Of a stretch of 64,000 nucleotides of DNA, positions 28,028-42,480 are shown piece by piece. The DNA comes from Streptosporangiaceae bacterium (GTDB lineage Bacteria > Actinomycetota > Actinomycetes > Streptosporangiales > Streptosporangiaceae), in assembly GCA_019239975.1 (NCBI GenBank), contig JAFAZE010000021.1, positions 1 through 64,000 of the forward strand, written 5' to 3'. The notes under the pieces were generated by a model. The model ran no database searches. It was given only the letters and a program-made list of their open reading frames with translations, and was not told the DNA's origin. The position numbers were made by a program, and so were the translations under genes. Each line of letters begins with the position of its first letter. Position 1 is the first letter of the stretch.

Positions 28028-29470
28028 ATGTCAACTTCTGTTGTTGCCCGCGACCGTTACGGGCACCACGCCGTGCGGCGGCTGCCCAGCTGGATGAGGG
28101 ACTACCTGCGCAGGGTCGTCTTGGCCGACCTCGGCTGCGCCACCCTCGGCGTGTTCGCCGCGGCCCAGCTTCGCTTCGGCAACAACGTGACCGGAGCGTA
28201 CGTGGGGCTGAGCCTGGCGCTGCCCATGTTCTGGCTCATCGCTCTCAGGCTGGCCGGAGGCTATGACGCCCGCTTCATCGGGACCGGCTCGGACGAGTTC
28301 CGCAAAGTGATGAACGCCGCGGTCAGCCTTACCGCGACGATCGCGATCTTCTCCTACGCGACCAATATCGAGGTGTCCCGTGGCTACCTGGTCATAGCAC
28401 TGCCCAGTGTCACGGTTCTCGACCTGGGAGCCAGGTACGTAATCCGGAAGCGGCTGCACAAGGTGCGCGAATCGGGCCGGTGCCTGCTCACCGTGGTGGC
28501 GGTCGGCCACGAGCTCGCGGTGGCCGGTCTGGTCACCGAGCTCGGGCGCGACCTCTATCACGGGATGCGGGTGGCCGGCGCCTGCGTGGCGCGGCCGGGG
28601 GAGCGCGATGAGGTGGCCGGCGTGCCCGTGTACGGAGGGCTGGACGATGTCACGGCCGCCGTCAAGGCGTTCGGCGCCGATACCGTCGCGGTGCTCGCCT
28701 GCCCGGAGATGGACGGCACCCGGCTCCGCGAACTGGCCTGGGAGCTGGAGAAAACCGGCACCGACCTGTGTGTGTCGCCCGCGCTGCTCGACGTCGCGGG
28801 CCCGAGGACCACGATCAGGCCGACGGCCGGGCTCACGTTGCTGCACGTGGATCACCCGCAGCTCGCCGGCATCCGGCTGGTCGTGAAGAACGTGTTCGAC
28901 CGGTGCGCGGCGGGGGCGGCGCTGATCATGCTCGCCCCGCTGATGGCGATCGTCGCCCTGGCGATCTGGCTCCATGATCGTGGCCCGGCGCTGTTCACGC
29001 AGGTACGGGTGGGCAAAGACGGCCGTGCGTTCCGGATCTACAAGTTTCGCACGATGGTCGTCGACGCCGAGCAGCGCAGGCAGGAGCTGGTCGCGGCGCA
29101 CAACGGGGATCATGTGCTGTTCAAGCTGCGCGAGGATCCGCGGGTGACCGCGATCGGCGGGCACCTGCGGCGCTGGTCCATCGACGAGTTGCCGCAGCTG
29201 TTCAACGTGTTCGCCGGCGACATGTCGCTCGTGGGGCCCCGCCCGGCGCTGCCCGGCGAGGCGGAAAAGTATGCCGAGCACGTTCGGCGCAGGCTGATGG
29301 TCAAGCCGGGCCTGACCGGGCTGTGGCAGGTGAACGGGCGGTCGGACCTGTCCTGGGAGGAATCGGTGCGGCTCGACCTGCGGTACGTGGAGAACTGGTC
29401 GTTCGCGCTCGACCTGCAGATCTTGTGGAAGACGGTCTCGGCACTCGTGCGGAGGTCGGGTGCGTACTAG
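28028..29470 (+). CDS. Exopolysaccharide polyprenyl glycosylphosphotransferase (WbaP-like)
   Basis: 480 residues. About five N-terminal hydrophobic segments and a degenerate CoA-binding/Rossmann-like middle precede the catalytic bacterial sugar transferase domain. The latter contains KNVFDRCAAGAALIMLAPLM, FTQVRVGKDGRAFRIYKFRT, RRWSIDELPQLFNVFAGDM, SLVGPRPALPGEAEKYAEH and KPGLTGLWQVNGRSDLSWEE. The enzyme starts polymer synthesis by moving a sugar-1-phosphate to undecaprenyl phosphate. It is the first gene of the locus and overlaps or abuts the next gene. The sugar specificity cannot be read. Confidence 0.93.
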   Translation: MSTSVVARDRYGHHAVRRLPSWMRDYLRRVVLADLGCATLGVFAAAQLRFGNNVTGAYVGLSLALPMFWLIALRLAGGYDARFIGTGSDEFRKVMNAAVSLTATIAIFSYATNIEVSRGYLVIALPSVTVLDLGARYVIRKRLHKVRESGRCLLTVVAVGHELAVAGLVTELGRDLYHGMRVAGACVARPGERDEVAGVPVYGGLDDVTAAVKAFGADTVAVLACPEMDGTRLRELAWELEKTGTDLCVSPALLDVAGPRTTIRPTAGLTLLHVDHPQLAGIRLVVKNVFDRCAAGAALIMLAPLMAIVALAIWLHDRGPALFTQVRVGKDGRAFRIYKFRTMVVDAEQRRQELVAAHNGDHVLFKLREDPRVTAIGGHLRRWSIDELPQLFNVFAGDMSLVGPRPALPGEAEKYAEHVRRRLMVKPGLTGLWQVNGRSDLSWEESVRLDLRYVENWSFALDLQILWKTVSALVRRSGAY

Positions 29471-29489
29471 GGCGAGAGGGATGGGGCTG

Positions 29490-30782
29490 ATGCGCATACC
29501 GCGATCACAGAGGGTGCTAGCTCCCGCCGGTCACGCGTGGCTGTTCGATCTTCTGTTCGCAAGACCGCCCACGGTCACCTGGGCCGCCGCGGGCACGCTG
29601 CCGGCCGGCTTCGAGCGCGCCGAGCAGTTCGCCGTGCTGCCGGCGGGCGGCGGGCGGAGCTTCATGGTGTCACTGGCGTCGCGGCGTGCCGCATCCTCGG
29701 CTCTGACCTCATACAACGCGCTTCGTTCGGGGCGCAGGTGGCTCGCCCGCCGTCTGCTCGGCGCTGGTCTGTGCACCGGGCTCGCCCAGCCCCTGCTGCG
29801 GGACAGGATCGATATCGGTATCGCATCCGGCGCCTCCCAGGGCGAGCTGGCGGACGATTTCCTGTGGGGGCACCTGCGGCAGGTGTTCGGCGGCGGGCGG
29901 CTCGTCGTCGCCTTCGGCGGCGGAAGCGGTCCGTACCGCAAGCCGGTGCTGCAGGTCTTCAGCACCGGCGGTACGCCGCTCGGCTACGTCAAGGTCGGCT
30001 GGAATCAGTGGACGCGCGAGGCGGTCAGCCGTGAGGCCGCCGCCCTGCGCGCGTGCGCGATCCGCCCCATGCGGGTCGGCGTACCCAGGCTGCTCGACGA
30101 TTCGCGGTGGCGCGGACTCGATCTTCTCGTCACCGCCCCGCTTCCTCAGGGCATCCGCCGGGTGGGGATCGGCGCGCCGCTTCCCGGCGCCGAGTTGCTC
30201 CGTGAGATCAGCGGGCTCTCGGCGGCACATGCCGGCGAGCTCTCCGCGAGCCCGTGGTGGCTCGGCATTCGTTCCAGGATCCAGACCGGCGTGACCGACC
30301 CTGTCACCCGCTCGGCCCTGTCGGTGGCGACCGACCGCATCGAGCGCGCCCATGGCGGCGTGCCCCTCGAGTTCGGCACCTGGCACGGTGACCTCGTGCC
30401 GTGGAACCTCGCCCGGCTCGGTGACCGCCTGTACGCGTGGGACTGGGAGAGCAGCACGCCCGACGCGCCGCTGGGATTCGACGCGGTGCACTTCCACTTC
30501 CAGGTGGCGTTCGTCGCCCGGCGTTACCCGGTGGAGCGGGCGGTGGCGCTCGCCGCCGCCGCCGCTCGCCCGGCGCTCGAGGCCCTCGGCATACCGCGGC
30601 ACGTACATGACCTGATCGCCGCGTTGCACCTCATCGAGCTGTCTGTCCGGCATGAAGAGGCGCGCCGCAGCTCGGGCGACATTGATGATCGTTTCTGTCC
30701 GGCCGTAGTCCGCGTGCTCGAACGGCTGCCCGCGCTGCCGTCCGGGCCGGCGGACCGGGACACCGCCCGGAGGGCCGCATGA
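29490..30782 (+). CDS. Aminoglycoside-phosphotransferase-fold protein in EPS locus
   Basis: About 430 residues. The C-terminal half has the APH/choline-kinase signature EFGTWHGDLVPWNLARLGD (catalytic HGDxxPxN) and YAWDWESSTPDAPLGFDAVH (metal-binding D). The N-terminal half contains FGGGSGPYRKPVLQVF and YVKVGWN, a plausible nucleotide-binding lobe with Lys. It may phosphorylate a sugar or lipid intermediate. The start is uncertain: GTG 29460 overlaps the previous stop, ATG 29481 abuts AGGG, and ATG 29490 has a better-spaced GAGAGGG. The stop overlaps the PssD gene start (ATGA). Confidence 0.68.
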   Translation: MRIPRSQRVLAPAGHAWLFDLLFARPPTVTWAAAGTLPAGFERAEQFAVLPAGGGRSFMVSLASRRAASSALTSYNALRSGRRWLARRLLGAGLCTGLAQPLLRDRIDIGIASGASQGELADDFLWGHLRQVFGGGRLVVAFGGGSGPYRKPVLQVFSTGGTPLGYVKVGWNQWTREAVSREAAALRACAIRPMRVGVPRLLDDSRWRGLDLLVTAPLPQGIRRVGIGAPLPGAELLREISGLSAAHAGELSASPWWLGIRSRIQTGVTDPVTRSALSVATDRIERAHGGVPLEFGTWHGDLVPWNLARLGDRLYAWDWESSTPDAPLGFDAVHFHFQVAFVARRYPVERAVALAAAAARPALEALGIPRHVHDLIAALHLIELSVRHEEARRSSGDIDDRFCPAVVRVLERLPALPSGPADRDTARRAA

Positions 30783-31228: not shown

Positions 31229-31956
31229 CGGCGCCGGCCGCCCACGCGCGAGGGCCTGCCGGCTCGCGCATCGTGGTGACCGTCGGCACCGACCATCATC
31301 CATTCGACCGGCTCATCAGCTGGATCAATGACTGGCTCCGGCGACATCCCGAACACCTCCCCACGGTCTTCGTGCAATCCGGTACCGCATCGGTCGTCCC
31401 CGGCTGCCCTGGCTCCCGCTTCGTCGAGGTGGGTCAGCTGAGTGCCCTGCTCGACTCCGCCGACGTGATCGTCTGCCACGGCGGCCCGGCGTCGATCGCC
31501 GAGGCATGGGCACGCGGACAGCTGCCCATCGTGGTGCCGCGCCTCCGCCAGCTCGGTGAGCACGTCGACGACCACCAGGCTGACTTCTGCGGCAGGATCG
31601 CGGAACTTGGCCGGATCAGGCTCGCGCATACACCCGCCGACTTCGCCGGGCTGCTCGACGAGGCGGCGCGCGATCACACCAGTTTCCGGGCTCGCCTGCC
31701 CCAGGCCGACGTCGACGCGGCCGTGGCGCGCTTCGGAGAACTGGTCGACGACCTGGTCAGCCGCTCATGGCAGCGACGGCCGCTCATCGACCGGGCCTGG
31801 CGAGTCCTGCGCCGGCCGGCCATGAGCACCCGCGCTCCGGGGCGGTCGCGGCAACATGCCGTCGCATTCATCCCGGTGAACCCCAACGGGCACGCGGACG
31901 GGGAATCCGCGCGCACTGGCCTCGCCGGGAAGGCACACAAGGAGCAAGAACAGTGA
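31225..31956 (+). CDS. PssE/Alg13-like glycosyltransferase subunit
   Basis: 243 residues. IVVTVGTDHHPFDRLISWIN and SADVIVCHGGPASIAEAWAR with the GGPAS donor-binding motif and PIVVPRLRQLGEHVDDHQ are hallmarks of the catalytic Alg13/PssE half. The C-terminal ~60 residues are a basic, Pro-rich extension beyond the usual family length. It begins at the ATGA overlap with the PssD gene, and its stop overlaps the GTG of the next gene (GTGA). Confidence 0.87.
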   Translation: MTAPAAHARGPAGSRIVVTVGTDHHPFDRLISWINDWLRRHPEHLPTVFVQSGTASVVPGCPGSRFVEVGQLSALLDSADVIVCHGGPASIAEAWARGQLPIVVPRLRQLGEHVDDHQADFCGRIAELGRIRLAHTPADFAGLLDEAARDHTSFRARLPQADVDAAVARFGELVDDLVSRSWQRRPLIDRAWRVLRRPAMSTRAPGRSRQHAVAFIPVNPNGHADGESARTGLAGKAHKEQEQ

Positions 31957-34301
31957 AACTAAGAGTCCTCTCCGGGGCGGCGGCGCTCGCGCTCGCGGCC
32001 TCCGCCGCAGCCGGGCCGGCGGTGCGGGCCGCGGCCGCGGTGCCCCCGGCCAGCTCCCCTGGAACAACACGAGCGGCCTTGCCGGCAGGCGCGGCCGACG
32101 GCAATCTCAGCTCCACGGCACTGTCGTCGTGGGAGACGGACGGGACGGTGTGGGCGGTTGCCTACGCGAATGGCGTGGTCTACGCCGGCGGCCAGTTCAC
32201 CCACGCGCTGCCGCCGGGAACCCCGGCCGGGACCACCACCGGGGAAGTCCCGCGCACCTACCTCGCGGCCTTCAACTCCACGACAGGCGCCCTGATCGCG
32301 TCCTTCAGCCCGGCAATCACGGGAACGTCGTCCTCGGACGGGGTGTACGCGCTTGCGGTGTCGCCCGACGGCAAAACGCTGTACGCCGGCGGCATATTCA
32401 AACATGTCGACGGCGTGTACCGGGACAACCTGGCCGCCTTCAGCCTTTCGACCGGTGCCCTGACCACCTGGGCGCCGCCGGCGTACGGAAAGGTGAACAC
32501 GATCGCACCGTCGCCGGACGGGTCGAAGCTCTACATTGGCGGTGCCTTCAACGAGCTGGGAATCCCCCTCACGGCGCGCAAGTATGCCGGCGCGGTGGAC
32601 TCCTCGGGCCACGTCCTGCCCTGGGCTCCTGCCCTGAACGACGCGGTGACCTCGATCGCCGTGGCACCCGATGACTCGCAGGTGCTGGTGGGCGGCTACT
32701 TCCAGACCATCAACGGGGTGCCGCAGAACGCCGCCGGGGCGGTCGACCCGGCGGCAGGCACGAGGACCGAGCCGTGGAACGCCAACATCGTTCCCTACAA
32801 GCCGCCCGGCTGCACCGGGGCGGTGAAGGACATCATCATCGGCGGCAGCGTCGCCTACCTCGCCGCGGAGGGCACCGGCGGCGGCTGCTTCGACGGTGAC
32901 TTCGCGGTCAGCCTCAGCCTCACCGGCGGTGACAAGCTCATCTGGCAGAACGACTGCCTGGGCGCGACCCAGGCGCTCGCGATCATCAACGGCTGGCTGT
33001 TCAAGGGCTCGCACGCGCACGACTGCGCGTTCGCGCCGGGTGGCTTCCCGCAGGTGCCGGCCGGCGGGCCGGGGCATCACCTGCTCGACCAGTCGCTCAC
33101 CGACGGCACGCTCGGGCACTGGACACCGGATGACAACGGCAATCCGCTCGGCCCGCGCGAGATGGCCACCAACGGCAGCCGGCTGTTCCTCGGCGGCGAC
33201 TTCACCACCGTCAACGGCAAGCCACAGGAGGGCTTCGCGATCTTCCCGGCCGGGCCCGATCCCGTACACCCGTCCAACCCGGCCACGGCGCCGGCCGTCA
33301 CGAGCACGTCGGCGGGCGTCGACTCGGTAAGCTTCCCGGCGGTGAGCAGCCGGGACGTCGGCACGCTCAAATATGCGGTCTTCCGTGACGGCGGCACCAC
33401 CCCGGTCGCCACCCTGACCGCCACGTCATGGCCGTGGGCGCTGCCGGTGCTGCATTACCAGGACAAGGGCCTCAGGCCCGGCTCCAGCCACACCTACACG
33501 TACACCGCCAGTGACGGTACCCACACCACAGCCAGGTCACCGGCGTCGGCGCGGGTCACCGTCTCCGGAAAGAGCCCGTCGCTCACCTATCGGCAGACGG
33601 TCCTGGCTGACAAGCCGTCGTTCCTCTGGCCGCTTGACCAGAAGTCGGGGACCACGGCCAGCGACGCCTCACCGCACCGGTTCAACGGCATCTACGAGCC
33701 GGGCACGACCAAGGGCGTGCCAGGCCCGATCACCGGCCAGCTGGCAACGGCTTTCGACGGCAGGTCCGGGCTGGTGACATCCGCGAGACCGGTGAACAGC
33801 CCGGGTACGTTCTCGATCGAGCTGTGGTTCAGGACGAGCACCAACAAGGGCGGCAAGCTTGCCGGCCTGGGCAACGCGCAGACAGGGGCAAGCTCCAATT
33901 ACGACCGGCAGATCTACATGATGAACGACGGCCAGCTCGTGTTCGGTGTCTGGCCCGGACATAACGAGACGATCGAGACGCGCAACGTGTACAACGACGG
34001 CCAGTGGCATCACGTGGTCGCGACGCTCAGCCCGACGGCCGGCCTGGCGCTGTACGTCGATGGCGGCCTGGCCGGGACGAACCCGGCCACCTCGGATGAG
34101 TCCTACACCGGCTACTGGCGTGCCGGTGGTGACAACCTCAACGGCTGGAACCTCGACCCATGGGGCAACAGCCAGGGCACGACCGAGCCGTACAGCTACT
34201 ACGTCAACGGCTCGATCGCCGATGTCGCCGTCTACCCGGGCGCCCTGTCAGCGGCTCACGTGCTGGCTCACTACGCCGCCGCGCTTCACCAGAACAAGTA
34301 G
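31953..34301 (+). CDS. Secreted delta-60-repeat propeller / Fn3 / LamG-like protein
   Basis: 782 residues. A signal peptide (MKLRVLSGAAALALAASAAA) is followed by a beta-propeller with repeats such as VYAGGQFTHALPPG, LYAGGIFKHVDGVYRDNLAA, LYIGGAFNELG, VLVGGYFQTINGVPQNAAGA and LFLGGDFTTVNGKPQEGFAI. Next come an Fn3-like segment (SSHTYTYTASDGTHTTARSP) and a C-terminal concanavalin/LamG domain (FSIELWFRTSTNKGGKLAGL, NDGQWHHVVATLSPTAGLAL, YVDGGLAGTNPAT). The GTG start overlaps the PssE stop and has AAGGAG eight bases upstream. Its place inside the locus suggests a surface protein that binds the polymer. No catalytic site is visible. Confidence 0.82.
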   Translation: MKLRVLSGAAALALAASAAAGPAVRAAAAVPPASSPGTTRAALPAGAADGNLSSTALSSWETDGTVWAVAYANGVVYAGGQFTHALPPGTPAGTTTGEVPRTYLAAFNSTTGALIASFSPAITGTSSSDGVYALAVSPDGKTLYAGGIFKHVDGVYRDNLAAFSLSTGALTTWAPPAYGKVNTIAPSPDGSKLYIGGAFNELGIPLTARKYAGAVDSSGHVLPWAPALNDAVTSIAVAPDDSQVLVGGYFQTINGVPQNAAGAVDPAAGTRTEPWNANIVPYKPPGCTGAVKDIIIGGSVAYLAAEGTGGGCFDGDFAVSLSLTGGDKLIWQNDCLGATQALAIINGWLFKGSHAHDCAFAPGGFPQVPAGGPGHHLLDQSLTDGTLGHWTPDDNGNPLGPREMATNGSRLFLGGDFTTVNGKPQEGFAIFPAGPDPVHPSNPATAPAVTSTSAGVDSVSFPAVSSRDVGTLKYAVFRDGGTTPVATLTATSWPWALPVLHYQDKGLRPGSSHTYTYTASDGTHTTARSPASARVTVSGKSPSLTYRQTVLADKPSFLWPLDQKSGTTASDASPHRFNGIYEPGTTKGVPGPITGQLATAFDGRSGLVTSARPVNSPGTFSIELWFRTSTNKGGKLAGLGNAQTGASSNYDRQIYMMNDGQLVFGVWPGHNETIETRNVYNDGQWHHVVATLSPTAGLALYVDGGLAGTNPATSDESYTGYWRAGGDNLNGWNLDPWGNSQGTTEPYSYYVNGSIADVAVYPGALSAAHVLAHYAAALHQNK

Positions 34302-34315
34302 GCCGAAGCGGGGTC

Positions 34316-37300
34316 ATGAGCGTTCTGGTCACGTCCGGCGCCCGGACTCTGGGAGCGGCGCCAGGGACCGGGCGACCGGATCACGGGAGGCCGGCGGCGT
34401 GGTCGCCCCGGCTGCCCGCCACCTGGCCGCTGACCGTCCTGTTCGCCGCCTTCCCGGTCTGGTGGCTCATCGGCGTGAGCTCCTTCGTCTGGCCCGTCGT
34501 CGCGGTCCCGATGCTGGTGGCGCTGATCTGGCGGCGGCGGACCCGCGCTCCCGTGGCCGTCGCCCTCTGGTTTGCGTTCACGAGCTGGGTGCTGCTGTCC
34601 GGCCTGCAGCTGGACAGCGCGACGAAGATCCTGTCATTCAGCTACCGGCTGGCGCTGTACGCCGCCGCGGGCGTCCTGTTCCTGTACGTCTACAACCTGC
34701 CGCGCGCCGGGTGGCTGGACGCCAAGGTGCTCCGGATCCTCACCTATTTCTGGATGGTCGTGGTTGCCGGCGGCTACGCGGGCATCGTGGTGGGCGCCCA
34801 CACGTTCGTGCCGCCGTTCGAGTACCTGCTGCCGCATGGACTGCGCAGCCAGCCGTTCGTGCAGGAACTCGTCCACCCCGTGTTCGCGGAGGTTCAGGGA
34901 TTCCTCGGGCACCCGGTCCCCCGGCCCGCGGCGCCGTTCGCCTACACGAATACCTGGGGCGGCAACATGGGAGTGCTGACGATGGTGGCGCTCGCCGCGG
35001 TCGCCGCCGCCGGCCCGGGACGCCGGCGCAGGCTGCTGATCGCCGTGCTCGCCGCCTCCCTTGTGCCGATGGCCTTCTCGCTGAACCGTGGCATGTTCCT
35101 GAGCATCGGGGTGGGCATCCTGTATGTGACCGCCCGCCTGGCGGTGCGCCGCCGCGTCGGCGCTCTCATGTCACTGCTGGTATTGACCGCCCTGCTCGTG
35201 ATCGCCGTCGCCCTGACACCGCTGGGCCATCTGGTTGCTGGCAGTTTCTCCAGCACTCACGGCCACAGCAACCAGGTACGCCTCAACCTGTACCGGCTGG
35301 CGATCACGGGCGCCAATCAGTCTCCCATATTCGGCCACGGAGAGCCGCAGCCGGTAACCGCCGGCCAGGGGCTGGCGGGCACGCCACCGATCGGCACTCA
35401 GGGTCAGCTGTGGGACGTGCTCTACACGAACGGCTACCCAGCCCTCGTGTTGTTCGCCGGCTTCTTCGGGATGGTGCTCTGGCAGACGCGCCGGGCGCGC
35501 GGCATCGCCGGATTGTGGCTGCAGGCGGTTCCGCTGGTCGCCTTGACGCAGATCGCCGTATACGGCTGGCTGCCGTCCGAGCTGCAGATCGTCATGGTCG
35601 GCGCTGCGCTTGCCTACCGCCGCTGCCGGCTGCCCGCGGGGGGTGCCGGGACGGCGGCCCGCGGGCAGTGCCGGGACGGAAGTCACCGGGCCGGCCGGAG
35701 CGCGATGGGGGCCGCCCGCCCTGACTGGCGCTGGGAGCGGCCACGAGGCGGCTATCCCCGGCCAGTGACGCGCCGGGGACGGGACGGGCCGGCGGCGCTG
35801 TCAGCGGAGGCCGCGGTTGTCGCCCGGGGATCGCTGGTCAACGTTGCGGCCATGGTGACGGGCGCGGCGCTGAGCTTCGCGCTGACCGTGATGGTCAGCC
35901 GATGGCTGCAGCCCAGCGGCGCGGGCGGCTTCTTCGAGCTGATCGCGCTTTTCACCATCCTGTCGAGCACGTTCGAGCTTGGTGCGGACACGGGTCTCAT
36001 GCGCTGGATCTCCCGGGCTCGCGCCACCGGCGGCCTTGCCGACGTGCGCTGGATCATCGTGAGCGCGCTTGCCCCCGTCCTGATCATCGGATGCGCGGCC
36101 GCCGCCGCCATGTGGGTTCTGGCGCCCGACCTTGCGCATACCTTCCTGCGCGAGATGTCGCCCGGAGCCGGTGCGGCCGACATCCGGATCGTCGCGCCGC
36201 TCGTGCCCCTCGGGGCGCTGTCGGCGTGCATCATCGATGGCGCACGGGGCTTCGGGCGGATGTGGCCGGCCCTCGTCATAGAAGGCCTGGGCAAGCCCGC
36301 GGCGCGCATTGGCCTGGTCATCGCCGCCTTGGTCCTCGGCTGGGGCCTGCACGGAGCCATCGCCGCATGGGGCCTCCCCGTCATCCTCGGCCTGGTGGCG
36401 AGCTGGCTCATCTTCGCCAGGATCTTCCGCGGAGAGGTCCCCGCACCGAAGTTTCCCGACGGTCCCCGCCGGGGACGGCACGGCGGCAAACCGCGACCGC
36501 CGGCCGGCCGGCGCCTCAGGCTGAGCCGGGAGTTCTGGGGATTCACCGCGCCGCGTGCCTTTCAGGGCACCTTTCAGATCGTGGTGCTATGGCTTGACAT
36601 CCTGCTGGTCGGCGCGATCGTCTCCCGCTACGCCGCGGGTGTCTACAGCGCGGTCAGCAAGCTCGTGCTCATCGGGACATTCCTGCTGGAGGGAAACCGG
36701 CTCGCGATCGGCCCGCAACTGAGCGCGCTGCTGGCGCGCCATGAGCATGACCGCGCCGCGGGTCTCTACCAGAGCGCGACCCGCTTGCTGATCCTGGCAT
36801 CGTGGCCGCTGTACATCGTCTTCGCGCTCTTCCCCGCCGTGGTACTGGGTGTCTTCGGGCCCCGGTACACAGCCGGAGCCGCCGCACTCGTCGTTCTCTC
36901 CCTCGCGATGCTCATCAACCTGGGAACCGGAAACGTGACGGTTGTGCTGCTCATGGGCGGCAAGAGCTCGTGGAGTGCCATCAACGCCGGGGCGGCGCTC
37001 GCCATCAACATCGCCCTGAACCTCGCGTTGCTGCCGCGAATTGGGATCCTGGGCGCGGCGATCGCATGGGCGGCGAGCATCGCGGTGGACAACGTCGCCG
37101 CCATGCTCGAGATCCGCTGGGTGCTCGGCCTGGCGCCCTTCGGCAAGGGGTACGCGCTGGTGGCCCTGACGACGGTGGGCTGCTTCGGCGTGACCGGCAT
37201 CGCCGCCCGCGCCTTGCTGGGCGAGACGCTGCCGGCACTGGCGGCGGCGGTGGCCGCCGGGGCGGCGGCCTTCGCGGCCGCCTTGTACCTCGGGCGGATC

Positions 37301-37408
37301 CCGCTGCGGCTCACCGGGATATACGCGGTGCTGCGCCCGCGGGCCGGGCCCGCCGCGATCGAGACTCCCGCGCCCGGTCATAGACCCGCAGAGTTCGATC
37401 GACGATGA
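34316..37408 (+). CDS. Fused Wzy-like polymerase and Wzx-like flippase
   Basis: 1,030 residues in one frame without an internal stop. Residues ~40-440 are an O-antigen polymerase/ligase-like membrane protein: many transmembrane helices, YTNTWGGNMGVLTMVALAAV, SLNRGMFLSIGVGILYVTAR and the long periplasmic loop with GHGEPQPVTAGQGLAGTPP. Residues ~490-1,010 are a MOP-superfamily flippase: RGSLVNVAAMVTGAALSFAL, GFFELIALFTILSSTFELGA, FTAPRAFQGTFQIVVLWLDI and TGNVTVVLLMGGKSSWSAIN. The junction (~445-485) is a basic, Pro-rich linker. Normally these are two genes. The last 98 bp overlap the convergent GT4 gene. Confidence 0.8.
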   Translation: MSVLVTSGARTLGAAPGTGRPDHGRPAAWSPRLPATWPLTVLFAAFPVWWLIGVSSFVWPVVAVPMLVALIWRRRTRAPVAVALWFAFTSWVLLSGLQLDSATKILSFSYRLALYAAAGVLFLYVYNLPRAGWLDAKVLRILTYFWMVVVAGGYAGIVVGAHTFVPPFEYLLPHGLRSQPFVQELVHPVFAEVQGFLGHPVPRPAAPFAYTNTWGGNMGVLTMVALAAVAAAGPGRRRRLLIAVLAASLVPMAFSLNRGMFLSIGVGILYVTARLAVRRRVGALMSLLVLTALLVIAVALTPLGHLVAGSFSSTHGHSNQVRLNLYRLAITGANQSPIFGHGEPQPVTAGQGLAGTPPIGTQGQLWDVLYTNGYPALVLFAGFFGMVLWQTRRARGIAGLWLQAVPLVALTQIAVYGWLPSELQIVMVGAALAYRRCRLPAGGAGTAARGQCRDGSHRAGRSAMGAARPDWRWERPRGGYPRPVTRRGRDGPAALSAEAAVVARGSLVNVAAMVTGAALSFALTVMVSRWLQPSGAGGFFELIALFTILSSTFELGADTGLMRWISRARATGGLADVRWIIVSALAPVLIIGCAAAAAMWVLAPDLAHTFLREMSPGAGAADIRIVAPLVPLGALSACIIDGARGFGRMWPALVIEGLGKPAARIGLVIAALVLGWGLHGAIAAWGLPVILGLVASWLIFARIFRGEVPAPKFPDGPRRGRHGGKPRPPAGRRLRLSREFWGFTAPRAFQGTFQIVVLWLDILLVGAIVSRYAAGVYSAVSKLVLIGTFLLEGNRLAIGPQLSALLARHEHDRAAGLYQSATRLLILASWPLYIVFALFPAVVLGVFGPRYTAGAAALVVLSLAMLINLGTGNVTVVLLMGGKSSWSAINAGAALAINIALNLALLPRIGILGAAIAWAASIAVDNVAAMLEIRWVLGLAPFGKGYALVALTTVGCFGVTGIAARALLGETLPALAAAVAAGAAAFAAALYLGRIPLRLTGIYAVLRPRAGPAAIETPAPGHRPAEFDRR

Positions 37409-38621
37409 CGTCCCAGTCGAAACGCTCTTCCACCCGGCGCCGGCCGCCGGCGCCCAGGCGCGACCGGAGCCCGGGATCGCGCGCCAGTCGCACCATCGCG
37501 TCCGCCAGCCCCCGCACCATGGCCGCGCGCGAGGACACATCGACGAGGATCCCGGCGGTCTCGTCGACGGAGGCGAGGTGACCGCCCCACGCCGTGGCGA
37601 TCACCGGCCGGGCGGATGCCATCGCTTCGAGGACCGCGATGCCGCCCGCCTCCTGCAAACTTGGCGACACGTAGACGTCGCAGGCCTGGATGCGGCGCGT
37701 GCATTCCCCCGGCTCGAGCCAGCCGGCGAAACAGACGTCCGCGCCGCGACCGGTGCGGGCGGCGTGCCCGGCCAAGCGGGCTCGCTGAGGTCCGTCGCCC
37801 ACAATCTCGAGTAGCGCCGGTACGTGGTCCCTGACCCGGGCGAACGCGTCGATGAGTATGTCGACACCCTTCAGCTCGACGAGGCGGCCGGCGAACAGGA
37901 AACGGGTCACGCCGCTTCCCCCGGAGGCATCGGTGCCGGCCGGCGGCTCATTCCGCGCCGGCCACGAATCGAGCACCACCCCGATGTCGGACAGCTCGAT
38001 CGCCCTCTTCCGGACGGACCGCGGCAGCAACGCCCGGGTCCGGTCGTTGGCCACCAGGATGACGTCCGCCCGCGCCCGTCCGCGCACGAGGCCGTTCAGT
38101 ACCGCCGCCGCGACCGGGCGAGCGGCCTTGGTCAGCGCGTACAGGCTCCAGTCGCGTTTCCTGAAGGACGGCGGCAGTTCCATGCCGCCGTTGAGCGGCC
38201 CCATGATGACCCGCGCGCCGAGCCGGGTCAGCGGCGAGGGAATGACCGGCGACACGCTGATGGGCTGGTGTACCACGTCGATCGCGAGTTCGCGGACCAG
38301 CCTGCGGGCCACGGGGACCATCGCGGCCTGCCGTTCGACCTGAGTGACCGCCCAGGCGATGGTCCGCAGCCCGGTGGGAAGCCTCCTGCCGAGAGTGAAG
38401 ACCGGGCCGAGTCCGTGGGTGCCGCTGGCGAAGATGACCCGCTCGAACTCAGCGGCCGGCAAGAGCCGGACGAGTTCATCCCGGGCGCTGACGTGCGTCA
38501 GCAGCCAGGTCTCCACACCCCGCTCTCGCAGCTTTCCGAACAGCCGCAGCGGAATCGATCCCTCGCCACCGCCGCGCTCTGATGCGTAGTGAGCGACGAT
38601 GAGCACCCTGTGGCCCGTCAC
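37311..38621 (-). CDS. GT4-family glycosyltransferase
   Basis: 436 residues. The N-terminal Rossmann domain starts HRVLIVAHYASERGGGEGSI. The donor-binding C-terminal domain shows RFLFAGRLVELKGVDILIDA, LEIVGDGPQRARLAGHAART, VCFAGWLEPGECTRRIQACD and the EX7E motif in SPSLQEAGGIAVLEAMASAR. The order is that of retaining GT-B enzymes. The GTG start at 38621 overlaps the stop of the GH26-like gene (GTGA). The 3' end overlaps the convergent Wzy-Wzx gene by 98 bp. Confidence 0.9.
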   Translation of the reverse strand: MTGHRVLIVAHYASERGGGEGSIPLRLFGKLRERGVETWLLTHVSARDELVRLLPAAEFERVIFASGTHGLGPVFTLGRRLPTGLRTIAWAVTQVERQAAMVPVARRLVRELAIDVVHQPISVSPVIPSPLTRLGARVIMGPLNGGMELPPSFRKRDWSLYALTKAARPVAAAVLNGLVRGRARADVILVANDRTRALLPRSVRKRAIELSDIGVVLDSWPARNEPPAGTDASGGSGVTRFLFAGRLVELKGVDILIDAFARVRDHVPALLEIVGDGPQRARLAGHAARTGRGADVCFAGWLEPGECTRRIQACDVYVSPSLQEAGGIAVLEAMASARPVIATAWGGHLASVDETAGILVDVSSRAAMVRGLADAMVRLARDPGLRSRLGAGGRRRVEERFDWDVIVDRTLRVYDRARESRSRRARPAGAAPRISR

Positions 38622-39589
38622 GGCGCACAGCGAAGGCCGGGGGATGCGGCGCCGTGCCCCGCCCGCGCGACCGCGTTCCGCCATGCCTCGATCGAAGCGG
38701 CGTCGTTCAGTTCGCCCCAGCGTGCTCCCGGGGGGTCGAACAACGTTCCGAACAGGGCGCCGCTGCGCTGGAGGTAGCGGGCGACCTCGGTCAGCCATTC
38801 AGCCCTGCCGGCCTGCGTGGCCAGGGCGAACTCGGCGAAGCCAAAGGGCAGGCCCAGGCTTCTCGATGCGGTCACCTCCGGGCCCATGAAGCCGGCAGGC
38901 GGCGTCGGCCGCGGGTTCTGGTCGCGCACGGTCCCCGCTGGGTAGGCGTCCCAGCCGAGAGTGCTGATCACGCGCCCGGAAGGCAGGAAATCCTTCCAGC
39001 TGACGCCGGAACGGGGGTCGAGGTCCCACGCCGTCAGGATCAGGGTGGACCTCAGGCCGGGATTATGAGCCGCATCCGCGAGCGCCACGATATGGGCCCA
39101 GGCCGCCTTGTACGCGGTTAGCGTGAAACGGCCGCCGGAGATAAAGAGCTCCGGCTCATGGTAATACGAATAGTAGACCGGGTAGCCGGCCGGTGCGGTA
39201 CCGAAGAAATGCAACAGCGCGGCGTCGTCCACGCCGGACAGGATCGCCGCGGGCGGGACTCTGAAGCTCACGACGACCGCTGACTTGTTGATCCCCTGCA
39301 CACCGGTCGTCCACAGGTTCGGGTCAGGCAAGCCGTCGTAGTAGACCCGGATAATGGGCAGGTGCCCGAATTCCGCGGTTACCGTCGCGAGCCGGGCTGG
39401 GTGAGTCGCATCGACACCGAGCAGCGTGTGAACGGAAGAACCGGCAGCCCGCCGTTGCGCGGCGCATGCCGTCGCGGGATGAGCCGCCGTCGGCCCGCCG
39501 CCGCCGGCGGTGTATGTGACATAGATGACCGCCGTCGCCAGCAGGGGGACGAGGGCCGCGCTGACCGCGAACCACCTGCTGCGGGGCAT
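38618..39589 (-). CDS. Exported GH26-like glycoside hydrolase-fold protein
   Basis: 323 residues. MPRSRWFAVSAALVPLLATA gives a signal or anchor segment. The domain includes VYYSYYHEPELFISGG, where HEPE resembles the acid/base motif of GH26 mannanases. It also contains STLILTAWDLDPRSGVSWKD, ISTLGWDAYPAG and PFGFAEFALATQAGRAEWLT, where the Glu of AEF is in the expected nucleophile place. It may trim or release the polymer outside the cell, as polysaccharide lyases and hydrolases do in many EPS loci. The start has GGAGGAGG upstream; the stop overlaps the GT4 gene. Confidence 0.65.
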   Translation of the reverse strand: MPRSRWFAVSAALVPLLATAVIYVTYTAGGGGPTAAHPATACAAQRRAAGSSVHTLLGVDATHPARLATVTAEFGHLPIIRVYYDGLPDPNLWTTGVQGINKSAVVVSFRVPPAAILSGVDDAALLHFFGTAPAGYPVYYSYYHEPELFISGGRFTLTAYKAAWAHIVALADAAHNPGLRSTLILTAWDLDPRSGVSWKDFLPSGRVISTLGWDAYPAGTVRDQNPRPTPPAGFMGPEVTASRSLGLPFGFAEFALATQAGRAEWLTEVARYLQRSGALFGTLFDPPGARWGELNDAASIEAWRNAVARAGHGAASPGLRCAP

Positions 39590-39769
39590 CAGATTCCTCC
39601 TCCGCGACTGCCAGGCTAACGGACGGCCCCGGCCGGGGCAACCTGCCGGAGCCCGGCTCCCGGGCGCGCACCCACCGTGCACCGGGCATGGGGCCCCGGC
39701 GCACCGGTCTTTGCCGCGAAGGCGGCGCGAGCGTAGCATCCGGGCAAAGCGTATGGAGGATGACTCACC

Positions 39770-41575
39770 ATGACTGTGCGACAGCCTCCGGTCAGCGAGG
39801 ATTTCACGGCCGAGCCGCGCTCGGTCGACCTGCACGATTACTGGCTGATCGTCCGTCGCCGCTGGGCGCTCGTCCTGGCGCTCACCGTGCTCGGTGCCGT
39901 CGGCGGCCTCGTGTACACGCGGTTGGCGGCCCCGAGCTACACCGCCACCGCGCAAGTGGTGGTCATGCCGCTCACCCAGAGCCCGCTCAACCAGCCGACG
40001 CAGGTCAGCCCGCAGGTCAACATGAGCACGGAGCAGGCGGTGGCGCAATCGCCCCTGGTGATCACGGGGGCGGCCAGGCTGCTGCACGTGCCGCCGGCCG
40101 TGCTGCAGGCGGCCGTGCCCAAGCGCCTGACCGTTTCGGTGCCGGCCAACGCGCTGACGACCTCCGATGTCCTGCAGATCTCCTGGCAGGCCGGCAGCCC
40201 GCCGGCCGCGCAGGCCGGCGCGAACGCGTTCGCCCGGGCATACCTGTCCAGCCGGCACCGCGAGCTCGCCAGCCAGATCGCGGGCGTCGCGAGCGCCCTC
40301 AACGCGCAGATAGCTGTTCTGCAGAAGCAGATCACGCGTGTCACCGCGGAGCTGAGCAGCACCCCGCCGGGGACGCCCGCGCAGCAGAACCTCACGGTCC
40401 GCCTCAACGAGCTCACCGCGCAGGCGAGCACCGCCAACAGCCAGCTCGCGTCGCTGCCCACATTCAACGACAGCGGCGGCACCCTGATCGCGGCCGCGCT
40501 CCCGCTCGCGCCATCCGGTCTCAGCCACACGGTCATCATCGCCCTCGGCGTGCTTCTCGGCCTGCTGCTCGGCCTGATCCTGGCGTTCCTGCTCGCCGCC
40601 TTCGACGACCGGGTGCGGGACCCCGGACAGCTCGAGCGCAAGCTGGGGGCGGCGACGCTGGCGGTGCTGCCGGGGGCGGAGGGCACGGCTCGCGAGAACC
40701 GCGGCGGCATCGGCCGCCGCCGCTTGCCGCCGCTCGCCGCCGCCGTCCGCCCGGACAGCCCGGCCGCGGAGTCCGTCCGCGCGCTGCGGGCGACGCTGGT
40801 GGCGGTGGCGGCTCGCCGGGACCTGCGGACCTTGCTCGTGTCCTGCGCCGACGCCAGCATCTCACCCAGCCACGTCGCCGCGGAACTTGGCGTGGCACTC
40901 GCCGAGTCGGGCCGGCGTGTGCTGCTCGTCGCCGCCAACATCCGTGGCTCATCGTTGGCGCAGCTCTTTGACCTGCCCGGTGACCGCGGACTGAGCGACG
41001 TGCTCACGGACGGCGTCGACCCCGAGGCGCTGACCCGCCACCCCCGCCAGGCCGGCGGCCTCCCCCTGCCAGACGCCATCGCCGGGCGGCTCCTGGTGCT
41101 ACCGGGCGGCCCCCCGACGGCGCATGCCGTGGCCCTCCTCGACTCCGCACGGCTGCTCGATGTGCTGCGAAGCCAGCGCGACGCCTACGAGTTCGTGATC
41201 CTTGATTCTCCGCCCGCCACCGTCGCCGCCGATGTCTTCTCGCTCGCGGCGCGTGTCGACGCCGTGATGGTGCTCGCCCGCGGGGCGCGAACCAGGGGAC
41301 GCGCGGTCGAGTACCTGCGTCGCGGGCTGGACCAGGTGGGCGCGCTGATCATCGGCGGTGTGTTCATCGCTCAGGGCAACGCCGGCCGTCGCCGGCGCCG
41401 GTCCGGCGGCCTGCGGCCGGCCGTGGACACGCCCGGCGCGGCCTCGGAGCGCCGTCCCGCCGGGCAGCAGCCAGACCTCGCTCCGTCGCCGTCGGCGGTT
41501 ACCTCGCCGTTGCCCGCCGTTTCCGATGACGAGGCGCTCGGCCCCCCAGGCGGCCTGGCGAAGCGGGGTACTTGA
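39770..41575 (+). CDS. Wzz/BY-kinase-like chain-length protein lacking Walker A
   Basis: 601 residues. The N-terminal Wzz domain has a first transmembrane helix (RRWALVLALTVLGAVGGLVY), a periplasmic coiled-coil region (ALNAQIAVLQKQITRVTAEL) and a second helix (HTVIIALGVLLGLLLGLILA) followed by AFDDRVRDPGQLERKLG. The cytoplasmic part is a BY-kinase fold with Walker B (YEFVILDSPPATVAADVFSL). Walker A is replaced by SCADASISPSHVAAELG and Walker A' by VLLVAANIRG. There is no tyrosine cluster in the C-tail. It probably controls chain length without kinase activity. GGAGGATG precedes the ATG; the stop overlaps the sulfotransferase start (TGATG). Confidence 0.83.
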   Translation: MTVRQPPVSEDFTAEPRSVDLHDYWLIVRRRWALVLALTVLGAVGGLVYTRLAAPSYTATAQVVVMPLTQSPLNQPTQVSPQVNMSTEQAVAQSPLVITGAARLLHVPPAVLQAAVPKRLTVSVPANALTTSDVLQISWQAGSPPAAQAGANAFARAYLSSRHRELASQIAGVASALNAQIAVLQKQITRVTAELSSTPPGTPAQQNLTVRLNELTAQASTANSQLASLPTFNDSGGTLIAAALPLAPSGLSHTVIIALGVLLGLLLGLILAFLLAAFDDRVRDPGQLERKLGAATLAVLPGAEGTARENRGGIGRRRLPPLAAAVRPDSPAAESVRALRATLVAVAARRDLRTLLVSCADASISPSHVAAELGVALAESGRRVLLVAANIRGSSLAQLFDLPGDRGLSDVLTDGVDPEALTRHPRQAGGLPLPDAIAGRLLVLPGGPPTAHAVALLDSARLLDVLRSQRDAYEFVILDSPPATVAADVFSLAARVDAVMVLARGARTRGRAVEYLRRGLDQVGALIIGGVFIAQGNAGRRRRRSGGLRPAVDTPGAASERRPAGQQPDLAPSPSAVTSPLPAVSDDEALGPPGGLAKRGT

Positions 41576-42480
41576 TGGCACAGCGGGCCAGGGGGCCAGG
41601 GGGCCGGGCCGCCCGCCAGGCCGCCAAGCTCGTGCTGCGCCGTTATGGCGTGGTCACGTCCGGTCTTCGGCGCGGGCCGGACTTCGTCATCATCGGCGCA
41701 AAGCGCGGCGGCACCACGTCGCTCTACAACTACGTGCTCGAGCACCGGTCCATTCGGCCGCTCTTTCCCGGGCGAGCACACATCAAGGGCGTCCGCTACT
41801 ACGACCTGCACTACGATCGCGGCCTGCGCTGGTACCGCTCGCACTTCCCGCTCCAGGCCGGCGGCCGTCACCTCGCGCGGCCCGGCACAAAGCCGGCGAT
41901 CGCCGGTGAAGCGAGCCCTTACTACCTGTTTCACCCGCTCGCGGCGGAGCGGCTGGCCCGCGATTTCCCCGAGGCGCGGATCATCGTCTTGCTGCGTGAC
42001 CCGGTGGAGCGGGCCTATTCCCACTTCAGGGAGCGGACCCACCACGGCGGCGAGACCCTGAGTTTCGAAGAGGCGGTCGACGCCGAGGAGAACCGGCTGC
42101 GCGGCGAGGCCGAGCGCATGGTCGCCGAGCCCGGCTACCGCAGCGTGGAGCACGAGAACCACTCCTACCTCGCGCAGGGGCGCTATCTCGACATGCTCCC
42201 GCGCTGGTTCGGGCTCTTCCCCCGTGATCAGTTCCACATCATGGCGAGCGAGGATTTCTATGCCGAACCGCAGCGCCATGTGAACGAGGTATGGAACTTT
42301 CTCGGCCTCCCGCCGGGCAGGCTTCGGAGCCGAATCCGGCACAATTACCTGCCGGCGCCGGACCTCCGGGCGCAGACGCGCCAGCGTCTGGCGGACGTGT
42401 TCGCGGATCACAACCGCCGGCTCGAGGAGTTGCTCGGGCGCTCGCTGCCGTGGCCCGCGAGCAAGCAGCCGGTCCGGTGA
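41575..42480 (+). CDS. Sulfotransferase
   Basis: 301 residues. The PAPS 5'-phosphosulfate loop is FVIIGAKRGGTTSLYNYVLE, and the 3'-phosphate motif is ARIIVLLRDPVERAYSHFRE, with the conserved Arg and Ser. Other family blocks are GEASPYYLFHPLAAERLARD and LAQGRYLDMLPRWFGLFPRD. It moves sulfate from PAPS to a hydroxyl group; in this locus the likely acceptor is the polysaccharide or a lipid-linked intermediate. Start is the ATG sharing an A with the upstream TGA; stop overlaps the GT2 gene (GTGA). Confidence 0.9.
   Translation: MAQRARGPGGRAARQAAKLVLRRYGVVTSGLRRGPDFVIIGAKRGGTTSLYNYVLEHRSIRPLFPGRAHIKGVRYYDLHYDRGLRWYRSHFPLQAGGRHLARPGTKPAIAGEASPYYLFHPLAAERLARDFPEARIIVLLRDPVERAYSHFRERTHHGGETLSFEEAVDAEENRLRGEAERMVAEPGYRSVEHENHSYLAQGRYLDMLPRWFGLFPRDQFHIMASEDFYAEPQRHVNEVWNFLGLPPGRLRSRIRHNYLPAPDLRAQTRQRLADVFADHNRRLEELLGRSLPWPASKQPVR

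Follow-up and report, generated by a model that had tools for sequence, protein, structure and literature searches.

A predicted single-chain Wzy-Wzx fusion in an exopolysaccharide cluster of a Streptosporangiaceae bacterium

Complementation experiments have led to the proposal of a Wzx-Wzy-Wzz complex, and the evidence that includes Wzx in it is genetic (PMC10030265). We analyzed a stretch of 64,000 nucleotides from a Streptosporangiaceae bacterium (the window), which carries a locus of this pathway. The WzxE/WzyE/WzzE system of the enterobacterial common antigen shares the enzyme classes and the gene context of the window, but its Wzx and Wzy are separate proteins whereas those of the window form a single chain. 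The wzy-wzx pairs of Actinoallomurus, Actinocorallia, Micromonospora and Salinispora have homologous halves in the same order, adjacent to each other and with a sulfotransferase close by; they encode two proteins through a four-base stop/start overlap, while the window genes are fused. Such overlapping stop and start codons couple translation and give near-equal synthesis of the two products. A lipid synthase and a flippase share one chain in MprF (PMC5898192), which is a precedent for the fusion, in one membrane protein, of an enzyme and a flippase that act on the same lipid. MprF belongs to other families and handles a phospholipid, and its flippase moves the product of the enzyme, whereas the flippase of the window would supply the enzyme with its substrate. 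The imp cluster for the sporangium matrix in Actinoplanes was considered as a counterpart and rejected, as the Wzx and Wzy proposed for it (ImpC and ImpE) are two distinct proteins and a sulfotransferase is unmentioned (PMC12691653). In the open-access literature, a search by phrase gave no Wzx-Wzy fusion, and broader searches listed no title or abstract describing one, although the absence of a report is not a proof.

The first-pass annotation of the window had described one uninterrupted frame joining the two functions, and the frame is indeed open over 1030 codons, from an ATG to a TGA. It lies among the following genes.

28073-29470, + strand: polyprenyl-phosphate sugar-phosphate transferase (priming), PF02397, E = 8e-69
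31947-34301, + strand: secreted-type protein with beta-propeller-like and laminin-G/ConA-like domains, ending 14 bp upstream of the fusion
34316-37408, + strand: fused wzy-wzx gene, 1030 aa (open frame, family matches, fused relatives)
39770-41575, + strand: Wzz-type co-polymerase, PF02706, E = 1.3e-11
41572-42480, + strand: sulfotransferase of the cluster, PF00685, E = 2e-15

An APH-type-kinase-like protein and Alg14/Alg13-like proteins are also encoded upstream of the fusion; downstream come an opposite-strand GT4, the Wzz-type co-polymerase, whose C-terminal part resembles by eye a CpsD-type kinase, the sulfotransferase and a GT2. The fused gene and the GT4 frame (37311-38798) overlap tail to tail over 98 bp (37311-37408). 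Two proteins of the cluster are without any Pfam match: that at 29460-30782, which by eye resembles an APH-type kinase and whose relatives often adjoin wzy, and that at 38618-39763. The presence together of a priming transferase, glycosyltransferases, Wzz and flippase/polymerase points to a Wzx/Wzy-dependent exopolysaccharide cluster. Separate Wzx and Wzy proteins, a usual though not strictly defining trait of such clusters, are replaced here by the single frame. A single Wzy_C match and a single such flippase were found in the draft genome, which leaves the fusion as the sole visible candidate for the two steps of the pathway. Among the loci L031-L128, a widespread actinobacterial cluster combines wzy and wzx with a sulfotransferase (84 of 98) and an APH-like protein (79 of 98), and often includes Alg13/14-like proteins and a propeller/LamG protein; its product may be a polysaccharide that is sulfated or modified in some other way.

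The fused protein was divided into three parts.

34424-35626, + strand: polymerase domain, Wzy_C, residues 37-437 (Pfam, AlphaFold model, helix topology)
35627-35803, + strand: Arg/Gly/Ala/Pro-rich linker, residues 438-496, predicted disordered and cytoplasmic (composition, model, topology)
35804-37345, + strand: MOP-superfamily flippase domain, residues 497-1010, about 14 helices, MurJ/WzxE-like fold (Pfam, model, fold search)

The O-antigen-polymerase-like membrane domain and the MOP flippase named by the first-pass annotation were both recovered above the Pfam cut-offs. Residues 244-381 matched PF04932 (Wzy_C) with E = 4.9e-10 and 39.8 bits against a cut-off of 31.7, and the same family was matched by 27 of 35 family rows at E 1e-3. 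Twelve polymerase helices were counted on the model, with basic inside loops (positive-inside) and two long external loops at residues ~160-210 and 301-363. Wzy_C proteins are characterized by 10-14 membrane helices and two long external loops bearing functional arginines (PMC12004945), and the window polymerase conforms to this architecture. R203 and R322 are located in the two long outer loops and R258 beside another external segment; each of the three is present in 94/94 rows of the polymerase alignment, and they are candidate functional arginines. These data place the N-terminal half in the Wzy_C (PF04932) polymerase/ligase superfamily, with a predicted polymerase activity. Near the end of the Wzy_C domain, this branch has a G-x-x-G-Q-L-W motif, which reads GTQGQLW at residues 360-366 (35393-35413); W366 is found in 95/95 rows. 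WaaL-type ligases have a histidine in the corresponding end-of-domain region. The catalytic residue of this branch may thus differ from that of WaaL-type ligases.

The flippase half, scanned alone, matched PF01943 (Polysacc_synt) with E = 1.5e-8 and 34.9 bits against a cut-off of 28.2. The AlphaFold model of the full protein comprises two confident membrane domains, with pLDDT mostly >85 in both halves and <50 at residues 446-470 and 472-494. Because the fused alignment had put the N-terminal parts of flippase-only rows onto the polymerase, the flippase was remodelled alone, with a mean pLDDT of 91. PDB sequence searches with each half as query gave no useful match, and a fold search with the full model returned a list filled by MOP matches. 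With the flippase half, the best PDB matches of the fold search include MurJ, the lipid II flippase, at the top, and WzxE (target TM-score 0.81-0.83). MurJ is only ~16% identical to this half, which family models place in Polysacc_synt; unlike MurJ, it is encoded in an exopolysaccharide cluster and its unfused homologues are paired with wzy. Both Pfam and fold thus assign the C-terminal half to the MOP-superfamily Wzx flippases, and transport of the repeat unit is predicted.

The linker contains 13 R against 4 D/E in 59 residues and is predicted to be disordered at ~446-494, in good agreement with the basic Pro/Arg-rich segment (~445-485) first noticed. From the 12 helices and the positive-inside loops, the C-terminus of the polymerase is predicted to be cytoplasmic, and so is the linker that follows it. 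The linker would begin and end on this side of the membrane in the model, which suits an N-in MOP flippase. An open linker is by itself weak evidence for a fusion at 82% G+C: random linkers of the same make-up were open over 64 codons in 55% of cases. The case therefore depends on the relatives and on the way in which the junction arose.

The same single frame was searched for in 60 related genomes, a check already proposed with the initial description, and it recurred in G013 (JAFAPY010000414, a Streptosporangiaceae MAG; 77-78% identity) and in G016 (JAOPYP010000483; 33-34%). The start ATG of the fusion lines up with the ATG of G013 (a 77% relative), where the upstream gene order is retained, including the propeller/LamG neighbour. 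A scan of the named genome collection with the single protein as query found no locus, while a scan with an alignment found 80 loci. The frame is also fused in L050 (JAJPIV010000009, a Centralia MAG; ~60% identical), making four fused genomes, each of them a draft. In 41 unfused relatives, wzy and wzx are direct neighbours with a four-base stop/start overlap, and each junction printed for these 41 adjacent pairs is NTGA (ATGA, GTGA or TTGA). In other unfused relatives, an APH-like gene and a sulfotransferase sit between wzy and wzx. G010 and G034, the nearest to G016, have separate genes, the first possible start following the stop by 119-147 nt. What sets the fusion apart from chance is that in four genomes the polymerase frame runs into the flippase without a stop, while in the adjacent-gene relatives it ends there. 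Long flippase frames in other relatives (e.g. 1213 aa in L041) were rejected as further fusions, because they are open frames due to high G+C that cross the APH-like and sulfotransferase genes out of phase.

Trees were built for the Wzy half (94 rows) and for the Wzx half (67 rows, quick tree). Both trees unite the window, G013 and L050 in a single clade with full support, and G016 stands apart together with the unfused G010 and G034. The fused label changes twice on either tree, and the starred branches force two changes; therefore, fusion occurred on at least two branches. The fused genes were seen in one small group of soil actinobacteria. Family and structure models, the relatives and the trees thus all support reading the frame as a Wzy-Wzx fusion.

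Two features of the linker bear on the origin of the junction.

35627-35679, + strand: 25-bp tandem duplication, 2.1 copies, 89% matches, copies at 35628-35652 and 35653-35677, shifting the polymerase frame by +1
35765-35768, + strand: fossil GTGA, whose TGA once ended the polymerase and now falls in the +1 frame, and whose overlapping GTG once started the flippase and now encodes an internal Val

The two copies of the duplication are alike at 22/25 bases, and none of 300 shuffled linkers reached its repeat score; G013 has a single copy of the unit. The GTGA is present in the linkers of the window, G013 and L050, with its GTG in the fused frame and its TGA as the sole +1-frame stop of the linker. 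It lies 18, 18 and 12 codons, respectively, upstream of the flippase core, and in unfused relatives such as L055 the flippase begins at a comparable distance from this core. The chance of such a site in a random linker is 6% for the window and 3% for L050. The fossil is absent from the linker of G016 (L032). That linker carries a 57-bp in-frame tandem duplication (93% matches) with a repeated MYRGDGLGTAA peptide.

Aligned at the DNA level, the linkers of the window and G013 show gaps of 25 nt, 3 nt and, close to the end, 1 nt, this last one being of opposite sign. In the stretch from the 25-nt gap to the 1-nt gap, homologous DNA is translated in one frame in the window and in another in G013. 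G013, devoid of the duplication, reaches the flippase frame via a different 1-nt indel. The simplest reading is that an ancestor had a GTGA overlap and that frameshifts in the unconstrained Wzy tail bypassed the TGA. The suspicion of a lost stop in the first-pass annotation would then be partly right, as to an event of evolution and not as to a slip of sequencing, which the diverged 25-bp copies and the fused relatives make unlikely. If the two fused separately, the window needs the duplication only and G013 its 1-nt indel only, while a single origin requires one extra indel. In L050, the coding composition of the fused frame is kept through codon 499 and lost at 500-529, and its switch point may differ again. 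These comparisons make a repeated origin within the window/G013/L050 clade likely but not proven, and the fusion probably arose several times.

In the comparison of the window with G013, substitutions in both domains are biased towards the third codon position; residues 771-1000, for example, have 20 at the first position, 14 at the second and 67 at the third. The linker has no codon-position preference, with 28 non-synonymous against 6 synonymous codon changes. This pattern of substitution indicates that the domains are constrained and the tether is not; the linker sequence being unconserved, there is no sign of selection for a particular tether.

Taken as a whole, we favour, with a probability of roughly 0.78, a single bifunctional inner-membrane protein of the Wzx/Wzy pathway, born by frameshifts past the TGA of an NTGA overlap. 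The starting state would be overlapping wzy and wzx genes, translationally coupled and with roughly equal output, in which indels in the unconstrained C-terminal tail of Wzy led wzy into the wzx frame. In the fused protein, the C-terminal MOP flippase would move the polyprenyl-linked repeat unit to the outer face, where the N-terminal Wzy, held on a short flexible cytoplasmic linker, would polymerise it. The tether would set a 1:1 ratio and the closeness of the two halves, so that tethering would hand over the substrate locally or fix the stoichiometry. As synthesis under NTGA coupling would already have been near-equal, the gain from the fusion may lie more in proximity than in ratio. We infer that the full-length chain is made and stable with both halves active, and that the fusion would physically tie export to polymerisation.

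An unlikely alternative accepts the continuous frame but has the flippase produced mostly as a separate protein, from an internal start (GTG 35765 or ATG 35705) or by cleavage of the linker. The ancestral start codon persists in three genomes, and a disordered Arg-rich linker would presumably be readily cut. The two internal starts proposed by the first-pass annotation do exist, one base away from its figures, but neither has a good Shine-Dalgarno sequence and none is common to the fused relatives; a conserved internal ribosome site sought at both codons across these relatives was not found. Furthermore, the ancestral coupling required termination at the TGA, which is now bypassed in this frame. 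The survival of the GTGA leaves room for some separate flippase, and separate products could still be made.

It is improbable that the N-terminal half is a Wzy_C-superfamily ligase or transferase that transfers the completed glycan to a different acceptor. The name of PF04932 is O-antigen ligase and the family includes such ligases, but the draft genome has a single Wzy_C match and a cluster with a priming transferase, Wzz and a flippase requires a polymerase. Equally doubtful is a recurrent and selected fusion, in which the window, G013 and L050 would each have bypassed the same TGA by a different indel, and G016 separately, the GTGA being kept because some ribosomes slip to it and re-initiate; a tethered polymerase-flippase and a free flippase would then be made in a set ratio. 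The idea that an indel error of sequencing or assembly, for instance in the G6 run at 35637-35642, mimics a fusion of two genes overlapping by GTGA is very improbable: a one-base change in the linker would bring back the ancestral stop, the run is six bases long and the draft genome is in 176 contigs, but the shift was traced to a 25-bp duplication with 3/25 bases diverged, unlike a run-length error, and three further genomes are fused with other linkers.

The single bifunctional protein that we favour would be a clear example of a stop/start overlap turning into a fused gene, and a ready-made construct for structure studies and for tests of substrate hand-over. A natural 1:1 fusion on at least two branches of the tree suggests that Wzx and Wzy tolerate or benefit from adjacency, and bears on the idea of a functional Wzx-Wzy-Wzz complex.
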